Under the pieces are notes generated by a model. That model worked only from the letters and a program-made list of their open reading frames with translations, had not been told where the DNA came from and searched no databases. From NCBI GenBank assembly GCA_009772895.1, contig WOUP01000004.1, positions 62,001-126,000 on the forward strand: a stretch of 64,000 bases of DNA. The letters are read 5' to 3'. The position numbers and the translations under genes were made by a program. This stretch comes from Puniceicoccaceae bacterium 5H (lineage in GTDB: Bacteria; Verrucomicrobiota; Verrucomicrobiia; Opitutales; Oceanipulchritudinaceae). Shown one piece after another: positions 3,399 to 22,839 of this stretch. The stretch's first letter is position 1, and the number at the start of each line of letters is the position of its first letter.

Positions 3399-4952
3399 TC
3401 AATACCGCTCCGGGTGCTGGCGGATGGCGTGCGCGCGGGCGCGGATCTGCTTGAGCTCGTCGGCGGATTTACGCTGCAGGTTCTTGAGCTGGAAGGCCAT
3501 GCGCTGATTGTCCTTGAAGGTGTCGCGGTGGCGGTCGAGAAAGTCGTAGTAGAGCGTGGTCATCGGGCAGGCCTGTTCGCCGGTTGCCTGCTTGTATTGG
3601 TAGCGGCAGCGGTCGCAGTGGTTCGACATCTTGTGGATGTAGTTGCCCGTGGCGCAGTAGGGCTTGGTGCCGACGATGCCGCCGGCGCCGTGCTGGCTCA
3701 TGCCGAGCGCGTTGGGCAGGGACACCCAGTCGATGGCGTCGGCATACATGGCCATGTGCCACTCATGGAATTTGCGGGGGTGCACGCCGTAGAGCAGGGC
3801 GAAGAGCCCCAGCACCATCAGCCGCTGGATGTGGTGGGCGTAGGCGTTGTCGAGCACGTTGCGCATGGCGTCGCGCACGCAGGCCATCTGGGTCTCGCCA
3901 TCCCAGAAAAAGGGCGGCACCGCCTCCTGGGCACCCAGCGCGTTCATCTCTGCGTATTCCGGCATGTGGGTCCAGTAGATGCCGCGTACGAACTCCCGCC
4001 AGCCGAGGATCTGGCGCACGAAACCCTCGACGCTGTTCAGCGGGGCATCCCCGCCGGCATAGGCGGTTAGCACCTTTTCGATCACTTCGCGCGGGTGCAG
4101 GAGCTTGATGTTGAGCGCGGCCGAGAGGCGGGAGTGATAAAGAAAATCCTCACCCTGCCACATCGCATCCTGAAAGCGCCCGAACAGCTCCAACCGGCGG
4201 TCCACGAACTCGCGCAATGCCTGCAGCGCCTGTTCGCGGTTGACCGGCAGGTGAAAGTGATCGAGTCGCCCCGGGTGATCGCCGAAGCGCTGGGCCACCA
4301 TCTCGAGCACCTCGCGGGTGGTGGCGTCGGGGGTGAACTGGCGGGGCGGCTTGATGTATTCCGGCCCTTCGCGGCCGAAGGTCGCGCGGTTGTCGGCATC
4401 GTAATTCCAGTCGCCGCCTTCGGGCTGCTTGCCCTGCATCAAGATCCCCTCGCGACGGCGCAGGTGGCGATACCACGTCTCCAGCAACAGGCTGTTGCGG
4501 CCCTGCGCCCAGTCCTTGAAGTCGTCCACGCTGGCGTAAAAATGCGTATCCGGGCGGATCTCCAACGCGAGGCCCAGTTCTACCGCCGCGCCCTGTAACA
4601 TCCGCCGCACACGCTCATCCCCCGGTTCGACCACGACCAGCCGTTCGGGCTGCAGGCGGTGCACGTCCTGGCGCAGGATTTCGGCAACGTCCTGGCCGCG
4701 GTCGTCGCTGCGCCGTGCCGTGAGCGCATGGTAATGCACGGGGTGCCCCTTCGCGCGCAGTTCGTCGCGGAAGTGCCGCATGGCGCTGAAGAAAAACGCG
4801 AGCCGCAACTGGTGACACCAAACGTGTGTCGCCTCCGTCTCGTTTTCGGCCATCCATACGGCGTCCTGCCGCGGGTCGAAGTCTTCCCACAGCGCACTGC
4901 GGTGATCGAGCTGGTCTCCCAGCACGAGGTAGAGGCGGCGAGTGGTGGGCAT
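3399..4952 (-). CDS. Iron-sulfur bacterial cryptochrome/(6-4) photolyase (PhrB/FeS-BCP type)
   Basis: A 517-residue protein of the cryptochrome/photolyase-related family that repairs UV (6-4) photoproducts using FAD and light. The N-terminal Rossmann-like part (LVLGDQLD) binds the antenna pigment. The C-terminal helical half carries the FAD pocket ([34 protein letters not shown]). The four [4Fe-4S] ligands of PhrB map well: C358 (QMACVRDAM) plus C446, C449 and C462 (CDRC...CPMTT), with the same spacing as published for Agrobacterium PhrB. An additional Cys433 lies close by. It is monocistronic, and the next gene on the same strand starts far upstream. Confidence 0.9.
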
Positions 4953-8770: not shown

Positions 8771-9348
8771 CCCCCGCGGTGGGGGGTGGCAAGGTGGACG
8801 GCCAGGCGGATTTTTCGGCCTGGGATGAAGCCTATCGGCGCGTGGAGGCCTATTTTGCCGCCCTGCGCATTCGCAACAAGCTGCTCCTGAGCACCTTGGT
8901 GCACCGGGTCTTGCAGAAGGCGGCCGAGCGCCAGAACGCGGGCGAGGTCGGGGCTCCGACCGAGATCGCGATGGACGAGGCGGACCGCGAAGTCCACCAG
9001 TGGTTCATCCAGATCCTGGATCTGGATGAAGAGGCGGGGGAAGACCCTGTCTTGCGGGGGCGCCTGTCGCTGTTGCTGGCTGACATGCCGCGCCAATGGC
9101 AGCACGAGTTTCTGACCGATCCGCCGTGGCCGGAGCCGTTTGTGGAGGCCATGCGCAAGAGCTTCCTGCGCGCGGGCCCCGACTTTCACCTCTCGCAGAT
9201 GCGCGCGCGTCCGCTCGAGTTGGGGCCGATCCCGAACCTCGCGGGCGAGACGCTGCGAGATCTGGACCGCAAGCCGCACCTGCGCAACATCCTGTTGTTC
9301 CTCTTCGTCATCGTCGGGGGCTTCATTCTCTTCTACCTGACCCGCTGA
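8746..9348 (+). CDS. Unknown single-pass membrane protein between opgG and opgH
   Basis: A 200-residue protein whose ATG lies inside the last codons of opgG (25-bp overlap) and whose stop is 4 bp from opgH, so the three are translationally coupled. Residues 1-175 are predicted soluble, helical and charged. One C-terminal membrane helix (about 180-198, NILLFLFVIVGGFILFYL) ends the chain, making it tail-anchored with the bulk probably cytoplasmic. E. coli OpgH has a cytoplasmic N-terminal region of about 140 residues that the OpgH here lacks. This protein could supply it in trans, but I see no convincing sequence identity. No family recognised. Confidence 0.8.
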   Translation: MELPVDLVTPAVGGGKVDGQADFSAWDEAYRRVEAYFAALRIRNKLLLSTLVHRVLQKAAERQNAGEVGAPTEIAMDEADREVHQWFIQILDLDEEAGEDPVLRGRLSLLLADMPRQWQHEFLTDPPWPEPFVEAMRKSFLRAGPDFHLSQMRARPLELGPIPNLAGETLRDLDRKPHLRNILLFLFVIVGGFILFYLTR

Positions 9349-12998: not shown

Positions 12999-13013
12999 AC
13001 TTCTGGTAGAAGT
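12999..13013. promoter_or_regulatory. Short perfect dyad upstream of the phytochrome operon
   Basis: ACTTCT-GGT-AGAAGT is a perfect 6-bp dyad 45 bp before the phytochrome ATG. TTGAAA (12993-12998) abuts it on the left and TACAAT follows on the right (13013-13018); their spacing (14 bp) is short for a sigma-70 promoter. It may be an operator in the promoter region. Chance occurrence is possible. Confidence 0.3.
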
Positions 13014-13057
13014 ACAATCCCTTGCGAGCTTGTTTACATCACGTAGTCTGAAACAAA

Positions 13058-15325
13058 ATGGCTGAAGTGACTCTGGAGAATTGCGACCGCGAACCTATCC
13101 ACATACCGGGAAGGGTTCAGTCGCACGGCGTGCTGCTCGTGGCTGATCGGCACACGCTACAAATTGTCCAAGTCAGTCAAAACGTAAAGGAGGTGCTCGG
13201 CCTGGAGCCGGACGCGGTGCTGGAGAGCAATTTGATTACCTTGGTGCCTCAAGCGACCCACGCAAAGCTGGAGCAGTTTTTGCGTGAGCCTTTCCCCGAG
13301 CAGGTGCCGCTCAGTGTCTTTTCCTTCAAGCATCCCGTCAGTGGAGCGGCTTACGATTGCCTGGCGCACAAACAAAACGACCTGTTCATTATCGAGGTCG
13401 AGCCTGCGGGTAACCCCAACGAGGCCATCAACCAGCTTTCGTTGTTGCGTGCCGCGATTGCGGAGGCGCGACGGGCGCACGATATCGGCGAGTTTTGTGA
13501 GATCAGTGCGCGTTATTTTCGCCGTTTCACCGGCTATGACCGGGTGATGATCTACCGGTTTCAGGAGGATAGCTCGGGCGAAGTGGTCGGTGAGAGCAAG
13601 CGGGATGACCTTGAGAGCTTCCTGGGCCTCCATTACCCGGCGACGGATATCCCGGCGCAAGCGCGTCGCCTCTATGCGCTCAACCCCGTGCGCATTATTG
13701 CGGACGTCAACGACCCGACCGTGCCATTGACGCCGAACGTGAATCCGATCACGCGTGCGCCGCTCGATATGAGCTTCTCGACCCTGCGTGCGGTCTCGCC
13801 CATCCACATCGAATATCTCCAGAACATGGGGGTCGGGGCTTCGATGTCGGTCTCGCTGCTCGATGGCGATAAATTGATCGGTCTGATCGCGTGCCACCAC
13901 TATTCCCCGCGCTTTTTGCCCTTTAACGTGCGCACGGCCTGTGAATATTTCGCGCACGCGTTTGCCCTGCAGTTTCGCAACAAGCTCGACCGCGCGACGC
14001 TGGACCAAGTGCGCCGGGCCAAGCGCATTGCGCATGATATGACGCTGGCCTTGCAGGCGGACCAGCCGGTGCACCGCACGTTGCAGGCCGAGAGCGAGCA
14101 ACTGCTGTCGATGGTCAACGCGCAGGGCGTCGCTTTCAAGGTGGGCAACCACCTCATCTGCCGGGGTGAGACGCCGGCGGGGGCGGCGGTCAAGCGCTTC
14201 GTGGCCTGGCTGCGGCAGCAAAAGGTGCGCGGCATGTGGCACACCGCCAGTATCCGGGAGTCTTACCCGGATTACGCGGACATGGAGGATCACGCCTCCG
14301 GTCTGCTCGCCGTGCCGCTGCAGGATAATTGGCAGTCTTACATCATCTGGTTTCGCGGTGAAGAGGCGCGCACGGTCAACTGGGCCGGCAAACCGGACGA
14401 GAAGGAGATCAAGGAGCTGGGGGATGGGCGCGCCCGCTTGAGCCCGCGGCGTTCCTTCGCGGTCTGGCGCGAGACGGTGCGGCACCGCTCCAGCGCGTGG
14501 CAGCCGCACGAGCTGGACAACGCGGAGCAGTTTACCCTCACGCAGCTCGCCCTGCGGGTGGAAAACGAGCGTCGGCGCAAGGCGGAGGATCGTTACCGCC
14601 GCGCCGTGGACCAGCTCAAGCGCTCCAACCACGACCTGCAGCAGTTCGCCTATGTGGCCTCGCACGACTTGCAGGAGCCGCTGCGTGCAGTGGCCGGGTG
14701 CCTGCGCCTGCTGGAGCGCCGCTTCAACGATAAGCTGGACGGCCCGGCCGCCGAGTTGTTGCAGCACGCGGTCGACGGTTCGATCCGTATGCAGCGGCTG
14801 ATCGAGGGGCTGTTGGCCTACTCGCGCATCAACAGCCGCGGGCGACCGTTTGCCGAGGTGGAGATGGAGGGCGTGCTGGAAGAGGCGCGCCATAACCTGA
14901 TGGTCTCGATCGAGGAGAACCAGGCGGAGGTGACATGCGACCGTTTGCCGGCGGTGAGCGGTGATCGCCTGCAGTTGGTCCAGCTTTTCCAGAACATCAT
15001 GGGGAATGCCCTCAAATTCCGCTCGGAAGATGCACCCAAAATTCATGTTTCCGCTCGCCAGAATGGCGACTTCCATCACTTTTATATTGCGGACAACGGC
15101 ATCGGGGTAGAGCCGGAATACGCCGAACGTATCTTTGACATGTTCAAGCGCTTGCACTCGCGACAGGAATACCAGGGCACCGGTATTGGCCTCGCGATCT
15201 GCAAGAAAATCGTCCAACGGCACGGCGGGATCATCGAATGTGAGCCAGTCGAGCCGAAGGGCTGCCGCTTTCATTTCACGCTCCCACGGGCTGACCTCAG
15301 CCTCTCTCCCTCTGTTGAAGAATGA
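13058..15325 (+). CDS. bphP: Bacteriophytochrome histidine kinase (PAS-GAF-PHY-HisKA-HATPase)
   Basis: A 755-residue red/far-red photoreceptor kinase. Cys9 in ENCDREPIHIPG is the biliverdin-attachment cysteine of bacteriophytochromes. A PAS domain (about residues 15-115) precedes the GAF domain, with PATDIPAQARRLY (Asp197) and SPIHIEYLQNMGV (His250) lining the chromophore pocket. The PHY domain is about residues 320-500, with PRRSFAVWRETV in the tongue. The kinase part has the H-box ASHDLQEPLR (His536), MGNALKF and DNGIGVEPEYAERIF with GTGIGLAICKKIV. Thr196 replaces the Ser usual in PASDIP. It heads an operon; its stop overlaps the receiver gene (ATGA), and a heme oxygenase for biliverdin supply lies at the other end. 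Confidence 0.95.
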   Translation: MAEVTLENCDREPIHIPGRVQSHGVLLVADRHTLQIVQVSQNVKEVLGLEPDAVLESNLITLVPQATHAKLEQFLREPFPEQVPLSVFSFKHPVSGAAYDCLAHKQNDLFIIEVEPAGNPNEAINQLSLLRAAIAEARRAHDIGEFCEISARYFRRFTGYDRVMIYRFQEDSSGEVVGESKRDDLESFLGLHYPATDIPAQARRLYALNPVRIIADVNDPTVPLTPNVNPITRAPLDMSFSTLRAVSPIHIEYLQNMGVGASMSVSLLDGDKLIGLIACHHYSPRFLPFNVRTACEYFAHAFALQFRNKLDRATLDQVRRAKRIAHDMTLALQADQPVHRTLQAESEQLLSMVNAQGVAFKVGNHLICRGETPAGAAVKRFVAWLRQQKVRGMWHTASIRESYPDYADMEDHASGLLAVPLQDNWQSYIIWFRGEEARTVNWAGKPDEKEIKELGDGRARLSPRRSFAVWRETVRHRSSAWQPHELDNAEQFTLTQLALRVENERRRKAEDRYRRAVDQLKRSNHDLQQFAYVASHDLQEPLRAVAGCLRLLERRFNDKLDGPAAELLQHAVDGSIRMQRLIEGLLAYSRINSRGRPFAEVEMEGVLEEARHNLMVSIEENQAEVTCDRLPAVSGDRLQLVQLFQNIMGNALKFRSEDAPKIHVSARQNGDFHHFYIADNGIGVEPEYAERIFDMFKRLHSRQEYQGTGIGLAICKKIVQRHGGIIECEPVEPKGCRFHFTLPRADLSLSPSVEE

Positions 15326-15771
15326 ACACCCATATGGACATCCGCCCGATCAATATCCTGCTGGTAGACGATAGCGAGACCGACGTCCTGCTGACGCGTG
15401 AGGCGCTGGCGGACGCGAAGATCCGCAACCATATGGACGTGGTCCACGACGGCGAGGAAGCCTTGAAGTTTCTCCGGCGGCAAGACCCCTACAAGTCCAA
15501 GATGCGGCCAGACCTCGTGTTGCTCGACTTGAACATGCCGAAGAAAGACGGCCGCGAGGTCCTAAAGGAAATCAAGAGCGATCCGAAGCTCAAGACGCTG
15601 CCGGTCGTCATCCTGACCACCTCGAAAGCCGAAGAAGACATTGCGCGTTCCTATGCTTATCATGCGAATTGCTATGTGACAAAGCCTGTTGACTATGAGC
15701 AATTTAGTGTAGTTGTGCGCTCGATCGAGAGTTTCTGGTTGAGTGTGGTCACCTTCCCTCCTCATTTGTAG
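15322..15771 (+). CDS. Rcp1-like single-domain response regulator
   Basis: A 149-residue receiver without an output domain. The acidic pair is VDDSETD, the phospho-acceptor is Asp69 in VLLDLNMPKKDG, the switch Thr is in VVILTTSKAEEDI, and Lys in YVTKPVDYEQF completes the active site. The form RPDLVLLDLNMPKKDGREVL is typical of the Rcp1 family encoded next to phytochromes, which takes phosphate from the phytochrome kinase. It overlaps bphP by 4 bp and is followed by the hybrid kinase after 8 bp. Output must be by protein-protein contact, possibly through the downstream hybrid kinase. Confidence 0.93.
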   Translation: MNTHMDIRPINILLVDDSETDVLLTREALADAKIRNHMDVVHDGEEALKFLRRQDPYKSKMRPDLVLLDLNMPKKDGREVLKEIKSDPKLKTLPVVILTTSKAEEDIARSYAYHANCYVTKPVDYEQFSVVVRSIESFWLSVVTFPPHL

Positions 15772-15779
15772 TCAATCCT

Positions 15780-17378
15780 ATGTCCCAACTGATCAACGTC
15801 CTCGTAATCGAGGATAACCCGACCGACGTTGTGCTGCTTCGTGAGCAGCTCAAGGAGGTGCCCAGTATCCAATTCTCGTTCGATACGGCGGACACCTTGC
15901 GGGGTGGGTTGGAAAAAATGGCGAGCAATAGTTACGACGCCGTACTGCTCGATCTGGGGCTGCCAGATGCTGACGGGCAGGAGGGTATCAAGCGACTGGT
16001 CGAGGCAGACCGCATGATGCCGCTCATCGTCCTGACCGGCCTGGCCGATGAGGAAGAGGCGCTGCGGGCCGTCGCCATGGGTGCCCAGGATTACCTCATC
16101 AAGGGGGAGACGGAGGCCAGCCTGCTGGTGCGCTCGATTCGTTATGCCATCGAGCGCAAGAATATGCAGGTAGAGCAGGAGATGATGGAGCGTCAGATCC
16201 AGCAGACGCAAAAGCTGGATGCTATCGGCACGCTTGCGGGGGGCATCGCTCACGACATCAACAACATGCTCACGCCTGTCCTGGCCTTGGCCGAAGTGGG
16301 GCGCATGGCGGACAATGCCGACTTTAACGAGATTTTTGACGAGATCCGCGACAGCGTGCTGCACGCGTCCGACCTGGTGCAGCAGATCCTCGTTTACAGC
16401 CGTCGGGCGCGCGACGAGGATCCCGAGCCGGTGCCGATCCACTATGCGGTGGCGCAGGCGATGAAGTTGGTGCGCAAGACGATCCCGAGCACGGTCAGCA
16501 TTCAGCAGGATATCCCGACCGAAGCGGGCATCGTACGCGTCGACCGCACTGCGATCCAGCAGGTGGTCATCAACTTGTGCATCAATGCCGCCCAAGCTAT
16601 GAGCGACGACGGCGGCGTACTGGCGATAGAGGTGTCCGATTGTCTGCTGGGCGAGCAGGAGGTGCGCGATTTCCGGGCCGACGGTCGGGGCGGCGCCTAC
16701 GCCCGCATCAAGGTGCAGGACAACGGCAAGGGTATCCCTGCAGATGTCGTAGAGCGGATTTTCGATCCATTCTTTACCACCAAGGAAGCCGGGGAGGGCA
16801 CCGGGCTGGGCCTGACGGTCTCCCAGGGCGTGGTCAAGCGCCACGGAGGTTTCATCACCGTCGATACGGAGGTAGGCAGAGGCTCGACGTTCTGCGTCTA
16901 CCTGCCGTTGATCGACGACGAGGACGCGTTGCCGAACGAAACGACGGCTTCTGTGCCCGGTGGGCAGGAGCGTGTAATGTTGATCGACGATGAGCCGCGC
17001 TTGCTCGAGGCGGTGCAGCTATTGCTCAACCGCCTGGGCTACGATGTGGTGGCGCATCAGGACAGCATCGCAGCGTGCGAATGGCTCGAGGCCCAGTCGG
17101 AGCGCCCGGTAGATCTGATCATCACTGATCAGACGATGCCGCGGATGACCGGTCTACAGGTGGCCCGTCGCGTCCTCCAGCGCTGGCCGGACATTCCGGT
17201 GCTGCTCACTACGGGCTATAGCGACAAGGCGAAGCCGGAGGTGGTGAAGGCGGCAGGGATCCACAGCATCGTTTACAAGCCCTTCCAGCCGCGAGAGCTG
17301 GCGCGGCAACTGCGGGCCGTCTTCGAGCCGGAACGGTTGGAGGAGCCGCAAAACGGCTCAGTCTCGCACTCTTCGTAA
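15780..17378 (+). CDS. REC-HisKA-HATPase-REC hybrid kinase of the phytochrome operon
   Basis: A 532-residue cytoplasmic protein without membrane segments. The first receiver has Asp58 in AVLLDLGLPDADG. The kinase core has His158 in LAGGIAHDINNML, ATP-lid motifs (INLCINAAQAM, DNGKGIPADVVERIFDPFFTTK) and GTGLGLTVSQGVV. A second receiver carries Asp450 in LIITDQTMPRMTG and the KPFQPREL lysine. A kinase with receivers at both ends can act as a phosphorelay node. Its place directly after the Rcp1-like gene suggests that it receives the light signal and passes it on. No DNA-binding domain is present in the operon, so the final target is elsewhere. It converges with bphO with a 12-bp gap. Confidence 0.92.
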   Translation: MSQLINVLVIEDNPTDVVLLREQLKEVPSIQFSFDTADTLRGGLEKMASNSYDAVLLDLGLPDADGQEGIKRLVEADRMMPLIVLTGLADEEEALRAVAMGAQDYLIKGETEASLLVRSIRYAIERKNMQVEQEMMERQIQQTQKLDAIGTLAGGIAHDINNMLTPVLALAEVGRMADNADFNEIFDEIRDSVLHASDLVQQILVYSRRARDEDPEPVPIHYAVAQAMKLVRKTIPSTVSIQQDIPTEAGIVRVDRTAIQQVVINLCINAAQAMSDDGGVLAIEVSDCLLGEQEVRDFRADGRGGAYARIKVQDNGKGIPADVVERIFDPFFTTKEAGEGTGLGLTVSQGVVKRHGGFITVDTEVGRGSTFCVYLPLIDDEDALPNETTASVPGGQERVMLIDDEPRLLEAVQLLLNRLGYDVVAHQDSIAACEWLEAQSERPVDLIITDQTMPRMTGLQVARRVLQRWPDIPVLLTTGYSDKAKPEVVKAAGIHSIVYKPFQPRELARQLRAVFEPERLEEPQNGSVSHSS

Positions 17379-17390
17379 GCCGCAGTCTCC

Positions 17391-18050
17391 TTATTGAGGC
17401 TGTCGGACGATGACTTGCTCGACTTCCTCAAAGATCGTGCTGCTGAGGTCGAAGCCGCGCACGGCTTCTTCCATCACGTGGCAGCGCTCAATGTCGCTCA
17501 AGGGGGCGTCGTCGATCCAGTTGCGGAAGTCTTCCTTGAAGCGGTCGAGGTCCGCAATCTGGGGGAAACTGTAAAAATTCGTGCCGAGCTCGTTGGGCAA
17601 GTCGAACTGGCGCTCGATGGCCTGGCCGATCATCTGTCCGCCGGACATATCTCCTAGATAACGCACGTAGGCGTGAGAGAGCAGGGCGGCGGGCATTTCT
17701 TCCGCCAGGTCTTTCAGGTGGCTGGCATAGCGGCGCCCGGCGTGCGGCTCCGCATGATAGGTATCGCTGCAAAGATCAGTGAGCTGCTCCAGGTCTTGCC
17801 CGAGGGCCTGAGAGCGGAAGATCTCGGGGCGGACCAGCAGACTGAGGGCCGGATGGGCGGCGTGCTCCCGCAGGTGTTGCTCCAACGCCATGTAGAGTTC
17901 CCGTAGTTCCTGCAGATAATAGATATACGCCGGCATCGTAAGGGGCCCGCGTATCAAGCGCCTGACGAAAGGCGCGCGTTCGGCTGAGCGGTGGGACTCC
18001 GCAGTCAGTTTGCGCAGCGCGGCAGAGAGCTTTACCGACGAATGAGGCAT
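17391..18050 (-). CDS. bphO: Heme oxygenase supplying biliverdin
   Basis: A 219-residue helical protein of heme-oxygenase length. The proximal heme ligand is His20 in LRKLTAESHRSAERAPF, and the distal-helix glycine motif is YLGDMSGGQMIGQA at about residues 131-143. The enzyme opens heme to biliverdin, iron and CO, and biliverdin is the chromophore of the phytochrome encoded opposite. The gene converges on the phytochrome operon instead of sitting in it. Its ATG lies in the right arm of a perfect 12-bp hairpin, and a TAG directly precedes the ATG in frame, so no longer start is possible. It lies 47 bp downstream of the metH C-terminal gene on the same strand. Confidence 0.93.
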   Translation of the reverse strand: MPHSSVKLSAALRKLTAESHRSAERAPFVRRLIRGPLTMPAYIYYLQELRELYMALEQHLREHAAHPALSLLVRPEIFRSQALGQDLEQLTDLCSDTYHAEPHAGRRYASHLKDLAEEMPAALLSHAYVRYLGDMSGGQMIGQAIERQFDLPNELGTNFYSFPQIADLDRFKEDFRNWIDDAPLSDIERCHVMEEAVRGFDLSSTIFEEVEQVIVRQPQ

Positions 18051-18071
18051 CTACCTGACGGTAGATGCCTC
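18044..18071 (-). promoter_or_regulatory. Perfect 12-bp stem, 4-nt loop hairpin covering the heme oxygenase start codon
   Basis: On the reverse strand GAGGCATCTACC, loop GTCA, GGTAGATGCCTC; the ATG of the heme oxygenase (18050-18048) is within the right arm and an AAGAGG purine stretch overlaps the left arm. No U-tract follows, so it is a poor intrinsic terminator. It would hide the start codon in RNA, or serve as a protein-binding dyad. It begins 26 nt after the metH stop. Confidence 0.6.
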
Positions 18072-18097
18072 TTATCAAGTGTCCAGTTTTTACCGGT

Positions 18098-20857
<2,760 letters not shown>

Positions 20858-20870
20858 AATAATAAAGCTG

Positions 20871-20955
20871 AACAGAAGGACACAAAGAACGCTAAGGCGT
20901 CATCGAGCGTATCGCTTCTCGGCCTGCATCTTTGTGTTCTTCGCGTTCTTCTGTT
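20871..20955. repeat. Imperfect inverted repeat between the two metH genes
   Basis: The left arm starts AACAGAAGGACACAAAGA (20871-20888); the right arm (20929-20955) is its complement with an extra nine bases, TCTTTGTGTTCT then TCGCGTTCTTCTGTT. Cores AACAGAAG and ACACAAAGA pair exactly. The wording 'cacaaagaacgc / gcgttcttctg' resembles short dispersed intergenic repeats common in environmental genomes. It fills almost the whole intercistronic gap and could fold in the metH mRNA. Confidence 0.55.
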
Positions 20956-20977
20956 GGTTTATCTGGCTTGGCGGATG

Positions 20978-22060
20978 TTACTGGATGACGAGGCTTTCGA
21001 GGCCGCTGAGACGCATGACCGGCTCGAAGTTCGGGATCTTGCGCGGCGGGCATTGCTTGAGGCGTTCAGCGATGGCCTTGATGTGGGCGGGGCGGGTGCC
21101 GCAGCAGCCACCGACGAGGTTCAGCCAGCCTTGGTCGCCAAACTCGGCCAGCACATTGGCCATGTTTTCCGGCGTATCGTCGTATTCGCCGAAGGCATTC
21201 GGCAGGCCGGCGTTGGGGTAGCAGCTGACGTAGCAGTCTGCCAGGCGGTTGAAGTCTTCCACGTGCGGGCGCATGTCCTTGGCGCCGAGGGCGCAGTTGA
21301 GGCCCACGCTGAGCGGTCGGGCGTGCGCGACGGAGGCCCAGAAGCCTTCGACCGTCTGCCCGCTGAGGGTGCGGCCCGAGCGGTCCGTAATCGTGACGGA
21401 AATCTGGATCGGCAGCTTGTAGCCCAGCTCGTCGAACAAGTCGTAGCAGGCAAAGATGGCGGCCTTGGCGTTGAGCGTGTCGAAGATCGTCTCGATCAAC
21501 AACGTGTCGACGCCGCCTTCCACGAGGTTCTTGGCCTGCTCGTAGTAGGCTTCCTTCAGCTGATTGAAGTTGATGGCGCGGTAGCCCGGGTTGTTCACGT
21601 CGGGCGAGAGCGAGGCCGTGCGGTTGGTCGGCCCGAGGCCGCCGGCAACGAACACCTGACGGTCCGGGTTTTCGGCCATGAACTCGTCGGCCACCTTGCG
21701 GCACAGCTGCGCCGCCTTCACGTTGAGCTCCGGCACGAGCGACTCCATGTGGTAGTCGGCCTGGGAGATCTTCGTGGCGTTGAAAGTGTTGGTTTCGATG
21801 ATATCGCTACCGGCCTCGAGGAAGCTGCGGTGGACGTTGGCGATCACATCGGGGCGGGTGATCACGAGCAGGTCGTTGTTCCCCTTCAGGTCACCCTGGT
21901 GATCCTTGAAGCGGTCTCCGCGAAAATCTTCCTCCGACAGCTTGTACTGCTGGATTTCGGTACCCATACCACCGTCCAGAAAGGCGATGCGCTCACTCAG
22001 AAGCTGGCGCAGGGCGGCTTCGCGTTCTTTCACGCGCTGGGCATTGGATTGATTACTCAT
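20978..22060 (-). CDS. metH: Methionine synthase, N-terminal homocysteine S-methyltransferase polypeptide
   Basis: A 360-residue TIM-barrel protein equal to the first domain of MetH. It begins [16 protein letters not shown], and has the zinc ligands Cys256 (GLNCALGA) and Cys319/Cys320 ([11 protein letters not shown]) that bind and activate homocysteine. [16 protein letters not shown] and [11 protein letters not shown] are further MetH signatures. It must dock with the folate/cobalamin polypeptide encoded 120 bp downstream. Such two-part MetH enzymes are known in other bacteria. No cobalamin or SAM riboswitch fits in the short upstream region, but a promoter with an internal dyad is present there. 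Confidence 0.93.
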
Positions 22061-22066
22061 AAATCA

Positions 22067-22096
22067 TATCATCAAAATTCGATGATACGTTGTCAA
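22067..22096 (-). promoter_or_regulatory. Candidate metH promoter with operator-like dyad
   Basis: On the reverse strand TTGACA (22096-22091), 17-nt spacer, GATGAT (22073-22068). A perfect 7-bp dyad TATCATC-N7-GATGATA (22067-22073 and 22081-22087) overlaps the spacer and -10, the classical position for repressor control. Transcription would start near the metH ATG at 22060, implying little or no leader. The regulator is not in the window. Confidence 0.45.
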
Positions 22097-22155
22097 GCGG
22101 GGTAGGTGACAAGCGTATGCCAGTAAGGTGCAGGCGATTAGGCGGTCGCCGGGGC

Positions 22156-22839
22156 TTATCGGGCACTGTCCGCCACCGGTGCATGGGCAGCGGGGCGCAG
22201 GTAGAGCTGACCTTGGGCGGTGAAGAGCACCATGTAGAGCGTATTGGCCCGGGGGCGGATGCTGACGCTGCTGCCGTAGACGGCGACGATGCCTTGCTGT
22301 TGCTGCTGCTCGGGGTCGTGGGCGAGCTGCCAGACCTTTGCCCAGAACTGCTGGCTCACGCGCGCGGGCACTTCGGAGAAGGCCGACTCGTAGCGGGCGG
22401 GGACTTTGGGCTGGTCGGGCCAGAGCTGGGCGCCTTCGGCGGGGCGTTCTTCATCGCCGTAGATGCGGCGCCAGAGCAGGAGGGCCCGGGCCTTGCCGTC
22501 GGAGACGAGTTGGTTGTCGAACTTGACTACCGCGCCCTCGAGGAAGACTTCTTCGCCGAAGACGACGTAGGTCTGCGGCTGGGGCAGCTTTTCAGGGCCG
22601 GAAGGCTCCTGGACTTCGACGCGCAGGTGCGGCTCCGTGATCGTTTGGCCGGGGGCGTCGGGCACGACGCGCAGGTAGGCGACGACTTCTTCCTGCTGGA
22701 GGTTGGAAATGGCCTGTTGCAGTGCCTGATTTTCGTGCACGAGCGACTGCAAGGTATGGGTGCCGGCCCACCAGAAAAAGCCGCCGACGCCCGCAATGGC
22801 GGCAGCTACCAGCACTATGGCTCGGGTCGCCCATTTCAT
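22156..22839 (-). CDS. Unknown membrane-anchored protein
   Basis: A 227-residue protein with one N-terminal membrane segment (about residues 5-24, AIVLVAAAIAGVGGFFWWAG). A short helical stretch (LQSLVHENQALQQAISNLQQEE) that may form a coiled coil follows, then a beta-rich extracytoplasmic domain. The ATG at 22839 is chosen over an ATG at 22929 because AGGGG lies right before it and the signal-anchor begins there. No family recognised; the acidic, strand-rich body suggests a periplasmic or cell-surface role. It lies between metH and the CoA-transferase gene on the same strand but follows a terminator, so it is probably transcribed separately. Confidence 0.65.
   Translation of the reverse strand: MKWATRAIVLVAAAIAGVGGFFWWAGTHTLQSLVHENQALQQAISNLQQEEVVAYLRVVPDAPGQTITEPHLRVEVQEPSGPEKLPQPQTYVVFGEEVFLEGAVVKFDNQLVSDGKARALLLWRRIYGDEERPAEGAQLWPDQPKVPARYESAFSEVPARVSQQFWAKVWQLAHDPEQQQQQGIVAVYGSSVSIRPRANTLYMVLFTAQGQLYLRPAAHAPVADSAR

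Follow-up and report, generated by a model that had tools for sequence, protein, structure and literature searches.

How is heme oxygenase (HO) made in Puniceicoccaceae bacterium 5H, given that the start codon of its gene is embedded in a perfect palindrome close behind metH? The window analysed here, a stretch of 64,000 nucleotides of contig WOUP01000004.1, carries on its minus strand the second part of metH, a gap of 47 nt and then HO (Table 1). A preliminary description of this DNA had reported a perfect 12-bp hairpin with the ATG inside it, no terminator U-run, and an HO gene that follows metH on the same strand. All of this holds: the two arms are 100% complementary around their 4-nt loop, the 3' arm contains the ATG, the tail ATTCGTCGG on the 3' side of the stem is devoid of a U-run, and both genes lie on the minus strand. 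We tentatively suggest, from sequence comparison and computed folds, that selection maintains the palindrome to control HO and that it would lock RNA reading through from metH, with HO being made from an open transcript of its own that would start at or next to the ATG.

Table 1. Positions in the window of the genes and of the sequence elements at the metH-HO junction.
Feature	Position	Strand	Remark
Heme oxygenase (HO), PF01126	17391..18050	-	E 1.1e-47
HO ATG start codon	18048..18050	-	no other start precedes the heme-ligand histidine
Perfect 12-bp inverted repeat, 4-nt loop	18044..18071	.	minus strand GAGGCATCTACC-GTCA-GGTAGATGCCTC; RNA fold -22.4 kcal/mol
RNA hairpin, 3' arm	18044..18055	-	holds the start codon
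RNA hairpin, 5' arm	18060..18071	-	found solely in transcripts begun upstream
TACCGT, candidate weak -10 element within the palindrome (putative)	18058..18063	-	missed by stricter scan
TGGACA, candidate -35 element (putative)	18080..18085	-	
Block from CTGGACACTTG to ATGCC, conserved in the sister species	18046..18086	-	
metH C-terminal part (pterin, B12, activation domains)	18098..20857	-	stop 18098-18100

The start codon is secure, because ATG, GTG and TTG are absent from the HO reading frame after codon 1 and before codon 32, and because, in the alignment, position 25 of human HO-1 corresponds to His20, which we take to be the heme ligand histidine. Few genomes of the order carry HO (8 of the 372 sampled at E<=1e-8), and only one other genome, that of another species of the same genus (G001; the genome studied here is G000), carries a close homologue, with 67% identity. 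No such palindrome was seen near the start of the two distant HO loci that were inspected (L003 and L008, from a set that also comprises L004 and L009-L011), and a scan of the genome contigs with an HO alignment gave no match. HO would presumably provide biliverdin for the phytochrome of the neighbouring gene. The window contains several light-related genes (3399-4952 and 13058-17378), encoding a photolyase-related protein, a bacteriophytochrome histidine kinase and two response regulator proteins. Synteny is broken at 17305-17417: in G001 about 67 kb separate the HO-metH pair from the phytochrome cluster, and in G000 the two converge with 12 nt between them. At 13000-13025, on the upstream side of the bacteriophytochrome gene, 26 nt (CTTCTGGTAGAAGTACAATCCCTTGC) are identical in G001 and include a CTTCT-GGT-AGAAG inverted repeat directly 5' of a -10-like TACAAT.

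That the hairpin exceeds chance, as had been proposed, is supported by simulation: a single repeat with arms of at least 12 nt and a loop of 3-8 nt arose in 30 simulated 64 kb windows (first-order Markov). Stable folds near starts are not peculiar to HO in this genome of 63% GC, however, as 2 of 143 predicted start regions have a fold that equals or surpasses that of the HO start. A second repeat of similar size is also present in the window, with perfect 13-bp arms around a 1-nt centre (9004-9030), within a coding ORF beside mdoG, so that perfection by itself is no proof of function. The palindrome might on that account be a chance product or a functionless relic, which we consider quite improbable since its position, the surrounding block and its pairing are all conserved in a second species. 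It is not a dispersed palindromic repeat of the REP type, as the 28-bp pattern occurs at a single place in G000 when up to 3 mismatches are allowed.

G001 is the only other genome found with the metH-HO order, and it has kept the palindrome, in the form GGGGCATCTACC-GTAA-GGTTGATGCCCT, in a metH-HO gap of equal length that aligns without gaps. The preliminary description had named absence from relatives with the same gene order as evidence against a function; the single such relative does possess the element. It had also asked whether the stem would be conserved rather than its sequence. The stem is indeed preserved, four substitutions leaving 11 of 12 pairs, but the sequence is preserved as well, since 9 of the 12 pairs are the same in the two species and both members of a pair have been replaced in just one case. 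The altered pairs are one A-U that became G-C (a compensatory change), one G-C that became G-U and one U-U mismatch, and the computed energy goes from -22.4 kcal/mol in G000 to -18.2 kcal/mol in G001. When four random substitutions were placed in the stem, an energy of -18.2 kcal/mol or lower was retained in 0.4-1.2% of the trials, 11 of 12 pairs in about 5% and at least 10 Watson-Crick pairs in about 9%. A shuffle control of the pair counts, which has little power with two sequences, gave 239 of 500 shuffles as good. Because the palindrome is known from two genomes only, the single compensatory pair is weak evidence, and two genomes cannot tell an RNA function of the palindrome from a DNA function.

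Conservation extends beyond the palindrome. From CTGGACACTTG through to the HO ATG, 31 of 36 sites are identical in the two species, compared with 3 of the first 11 nt 3' of the metH stop. Fourfold degenerate sites are identical at 36 of 73 positions in HO (49%) and at 142 of 196 in metH (72%); against these rates the 31/36 block, whose bounds were chosen after looking, is significant with HO as reference (4e-6) and weakly so with metH (0.04). Over the whole 47-nt gap, where 34 sites are identical, the corresponding values are 0.001 and 0.55.

What would the palindrome do in RNA? A transcript reading through from metH would fold into the hairpin and bury the HO start codon, and a stem this strong over an AUG should nearly abolish initiation. 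The base of the hairpin lies 26 nt past the metH stop so that, given the size of the ribosome footprint, a ribosome ending there should neither reach nor melt it. Read-through RNA would thus probably be locked against HO translation, and transcription of metH would yield no heme oxygenase. The scan found no terminator-like site in the metH-HO gap. Since HO is conserved as a protein, some way out of the lock must exist. We propose that this may be an HO transcript from the candidate promoter TGGACA-N16-TACCGT, the -10 of which lies inside the palindrome and which would start at or next to the ATG; devoid of the left arm, such a transcript would leave the start open. In the computed fold of a putative transcript begun at the ATG, the first 11 nt (G000) or 9 nt (G001) are unpaired.

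The candidate promoter occupies -35 to -8 from the HO ATG and is kept in both species, at a distance suited to a leaderless start. It was chosen after looking at the sequence, and no other pair within the upstream 110 nt satisfied loose criteria in either species. TACCGT matches a -10 at 3 of 6 positions, and a standard, strict promoter scan upstream of HO found no promoter; sigma-54 and ECF spacings, compared by eye, did not fit. In favour of the candidate, the same layout occurs in none of 143 sampled gene starts; against it, TANNNT at leaderless distance is not enriched in these genes. The sampled starts are rough predictions, which misplaced the starts of both HO genes. Strong Shine-Dalgarno pairing is found in just 12.6% of the 143 starts, and structure in the start region should therefore matter. 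Some Verrucomicrobia are described as Shine-Dalgarno-scarce (PMC10783764). A search of the literature on bphO promoters retrieved no papers.

The same geometry admits a reading at the level of DNA: HO would have a leaderless or short-leader promoter whose -10 and start are covered by the palindrome, and a dimeric transcription factor could bind there; the RNA hairpin would then be a by-product. A dimeric repressor site had been offered as an alternative in the preliminary description, and it stands as a live rival: all four half-sites, from the two species, fit RRGGCATCWACC. Against it, no transcription factor gene adjoins HO among the neighbours tested. An operator would account for the conservation reaching CTGGACACTTG, which an RNA lock alone leaves unexplained, and two other conserved upstream blocks of the genus also hold inverted repeats. 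The overlap of the palindrome with a promoter-like pair beside the ATG fits a leaderless promoter with operator of the acuR type, a precedent in which an inverted-repeat operator lies over the promoter of a leaderless operon (PMC3017554), with the reservation that the HO promoter is putative and its -10 weak. On the other hand, the retention of at least 10 Watson-Crick pairs after four changes is less unusual than the retained RNA energy.

In favour of an operator, the 14-bp core of the palindrome is in excess of controls. With up to 2 mismatches it occurs at 13 places in G000 and 14 in G001 (HO site included), whereas the reversed pattern gives 2 and 4, dinucleotide shuffles a mean of 0.04 per 64 kb and Markov simulation about 3 per genome. 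Such near-matches to ATCTACC-N4-GGTAGAT exceed the reversed-pattern control 3- to 6-fold in the two genomes. The excess lies mostly inside genes, which argues against an operator: 11 of the 12 other places in G000 (L064 is ambiguous) and 8 of the 13 in G001 (L059, L065, L106, L108 and L110 are ambiguous) are in coding-looking ORFs. As most of the other sites are so placed, codon usage is the likely cause. In G001, L106 stands 59 nt before an ORF; a second promoter-placed core site common to G000 and G001 was not seen. Across the order, a pattern search with up to 2 mismatches gave matches in 78 of 372 genomes, and among the matches listed, mismatch-free ones occurred only in G000 and G001, at the metH-HO junction. 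An exact scan of all genomes gave 12 matches in mixed phyla (chance estimate about 2), 9 of which overlap an ORF and 3 of which (L088, L090 and L098) do not; such overlap says little, because 98.9% of the bases of the window lie in some ORF of at least 60 aa. The upstream box CTGGACACTTG with its neighbours, sought in 10 genomes, was found only at the metH-HO junction of G000 and G001, apart from one match with 3 mismatches in G007. Taken as a whole, the operator explains nearly as much as the read-through lock, and we regard it as conceivable and somewhat doubtful. The two are not exclusive, and the same palindrome can do both.

A third reading makes the hairpin a regulated RNA switch, which would block HO translation until opened by a factor sensing light, heme or another signal. 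The AUG is buried in a very stable stem in both species, the loop (GUCA in G000, GUAA in G001) keeps its G, U and A, and HO should, from what we assume of the pathway, feed biliverdin to the neighbouring phytochrome. In start-codon-sequestering switches and thermometers, the start codon is likewise paired in a stem; the HO stem differs in being perfect and very stable, and no sensor domain was found. An RNA thermometer has a marginal stem with mismatches or bulges, which is not what is seen here: all 12 pairs are formed in G000, one mismatch is present in G001, and a defect-free stem of -22.4 kcal/mol is too stable to melt as a thermometer would. The minimum-energy folds keep the AUG paired in both species, and a search of 17800-22300 at E<=1 gave no match to any Rfam family, known riboswitches included. 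That light, heme or temperature might open the stem, as the preliminary description had imagined, thus finds no support in these results, there is no positive evidence for a signal-opened switch beyond the hairpin itself, and we judge a switch of this kind rather unlikely.

The hairpin could also belong to the upstream gene, as a 3' end or processing hairpin that would mark or protect the end of the metH mRNA; stable hairpins can protect RNA 3' ends, and this one stands 26 nt past the metH stop. It is not an intrinsic terminator, as no U-run follows the stem and the scan finds none. U-tract terminator candidates, some of them weak, are found 3' of 10 of 142 predicted genes in G000 and G001, and the lack of a U-run therefore speaks against a metH end hairpin in species that have such terminators at several gene ends. 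Thirteen family members in which metH is present with no HO behind it were compared: 10 of them have no perfect stem of at least 8 bp within 200 nt past metH, and the other three (L018, L022 and L025) have stems of other sequence. One of these does offer a parallel: in L022, a perfect hairpin of 11 bp lies 31 nt past metH. The palindrome is thus not a metH-linked 3' element of the family, it overlaps the start of the next gene, and a role at the metH end is unlikely. Elsewhere in this region, methionine synthase is split over two genes (18098-22060), the homocysteine methyltransferase part occupying 20978-22060 and the remainder 18098-20857. The metH 5' region (22041-22120), strongly conserved in G001, displays TTGACA and an inverted repeat TATCATC-N7-GATGATA just 5' of the start codon, and has no Rfam match.

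Returning to the read-through lock with its own leaderless transcript, the most specific form of the proposal is that promoter and lock are one piece on a bacterial chromosomal metabolic gene: the palindrome would hold the -10 of a leaderless promoter and would fold over the same AUG in RNA from upstream, so that HO, 47 nt behind metH with no recognisable terminator between them, would answer only to its own promoter. We see this version as open to considerable doubt. Should it hold, one palindrome of 28 bp would shield a gene from the neighbour upstream of it with no need of a terminator, the origin of the RNA would decide whether it can be translated, and the cell would have a way to keep the biliverdin supply of its phytochrome apart from the expression of methionine synthase. 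A narrow check of titles and abstract openings in one open-access library showed no host metabolic gene of such design.

Two known systems combine elements of the arrangement suggested for HO. In the acuR-acuI-dddL operon of Rhodobacter sphaeroides, the promoter lies within 36 bp before the ATG and the transcript starts at the AUG (PMC3017554). HO resembles it in having an inverted repeat placed like an operator over a promoter and a leaderless start, both putative in its case. It differs in that the acuR operon encodes its own TetR-family repressor and has a repeat with a 6-nt spacer, whereas HO has no adjacent regulator gene and its palindrome contains the ATG (same source). For the lock, the parallel lies in late genes of phage T4 (I-TevI, soc and e) and mobE of phage Aeh1, in which hairpins silence read-through RNA (PMC2988022). 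As in those genes, a stable hairpin buries the HO start site in RNA of the upstream gene, here by computation alone. In T4 it has been shown, and for HO it may be supposed, that the hairpin covers the translation start only on transcripts from an upstream promoter and that transcription from a promoter at the hairpin yields a shorter RNA that stays open (PMC2988022). HO differs from the T4 type in being a chromosomal metabolic gene of a bacterium, in having the start codon itself in the stem, and in belonging to a genome with little use of Shine-Dalgarno pairing. The literature thus already describes the principle in phage T4 and related phages, and here it would serve a bacterial metabolic gene.
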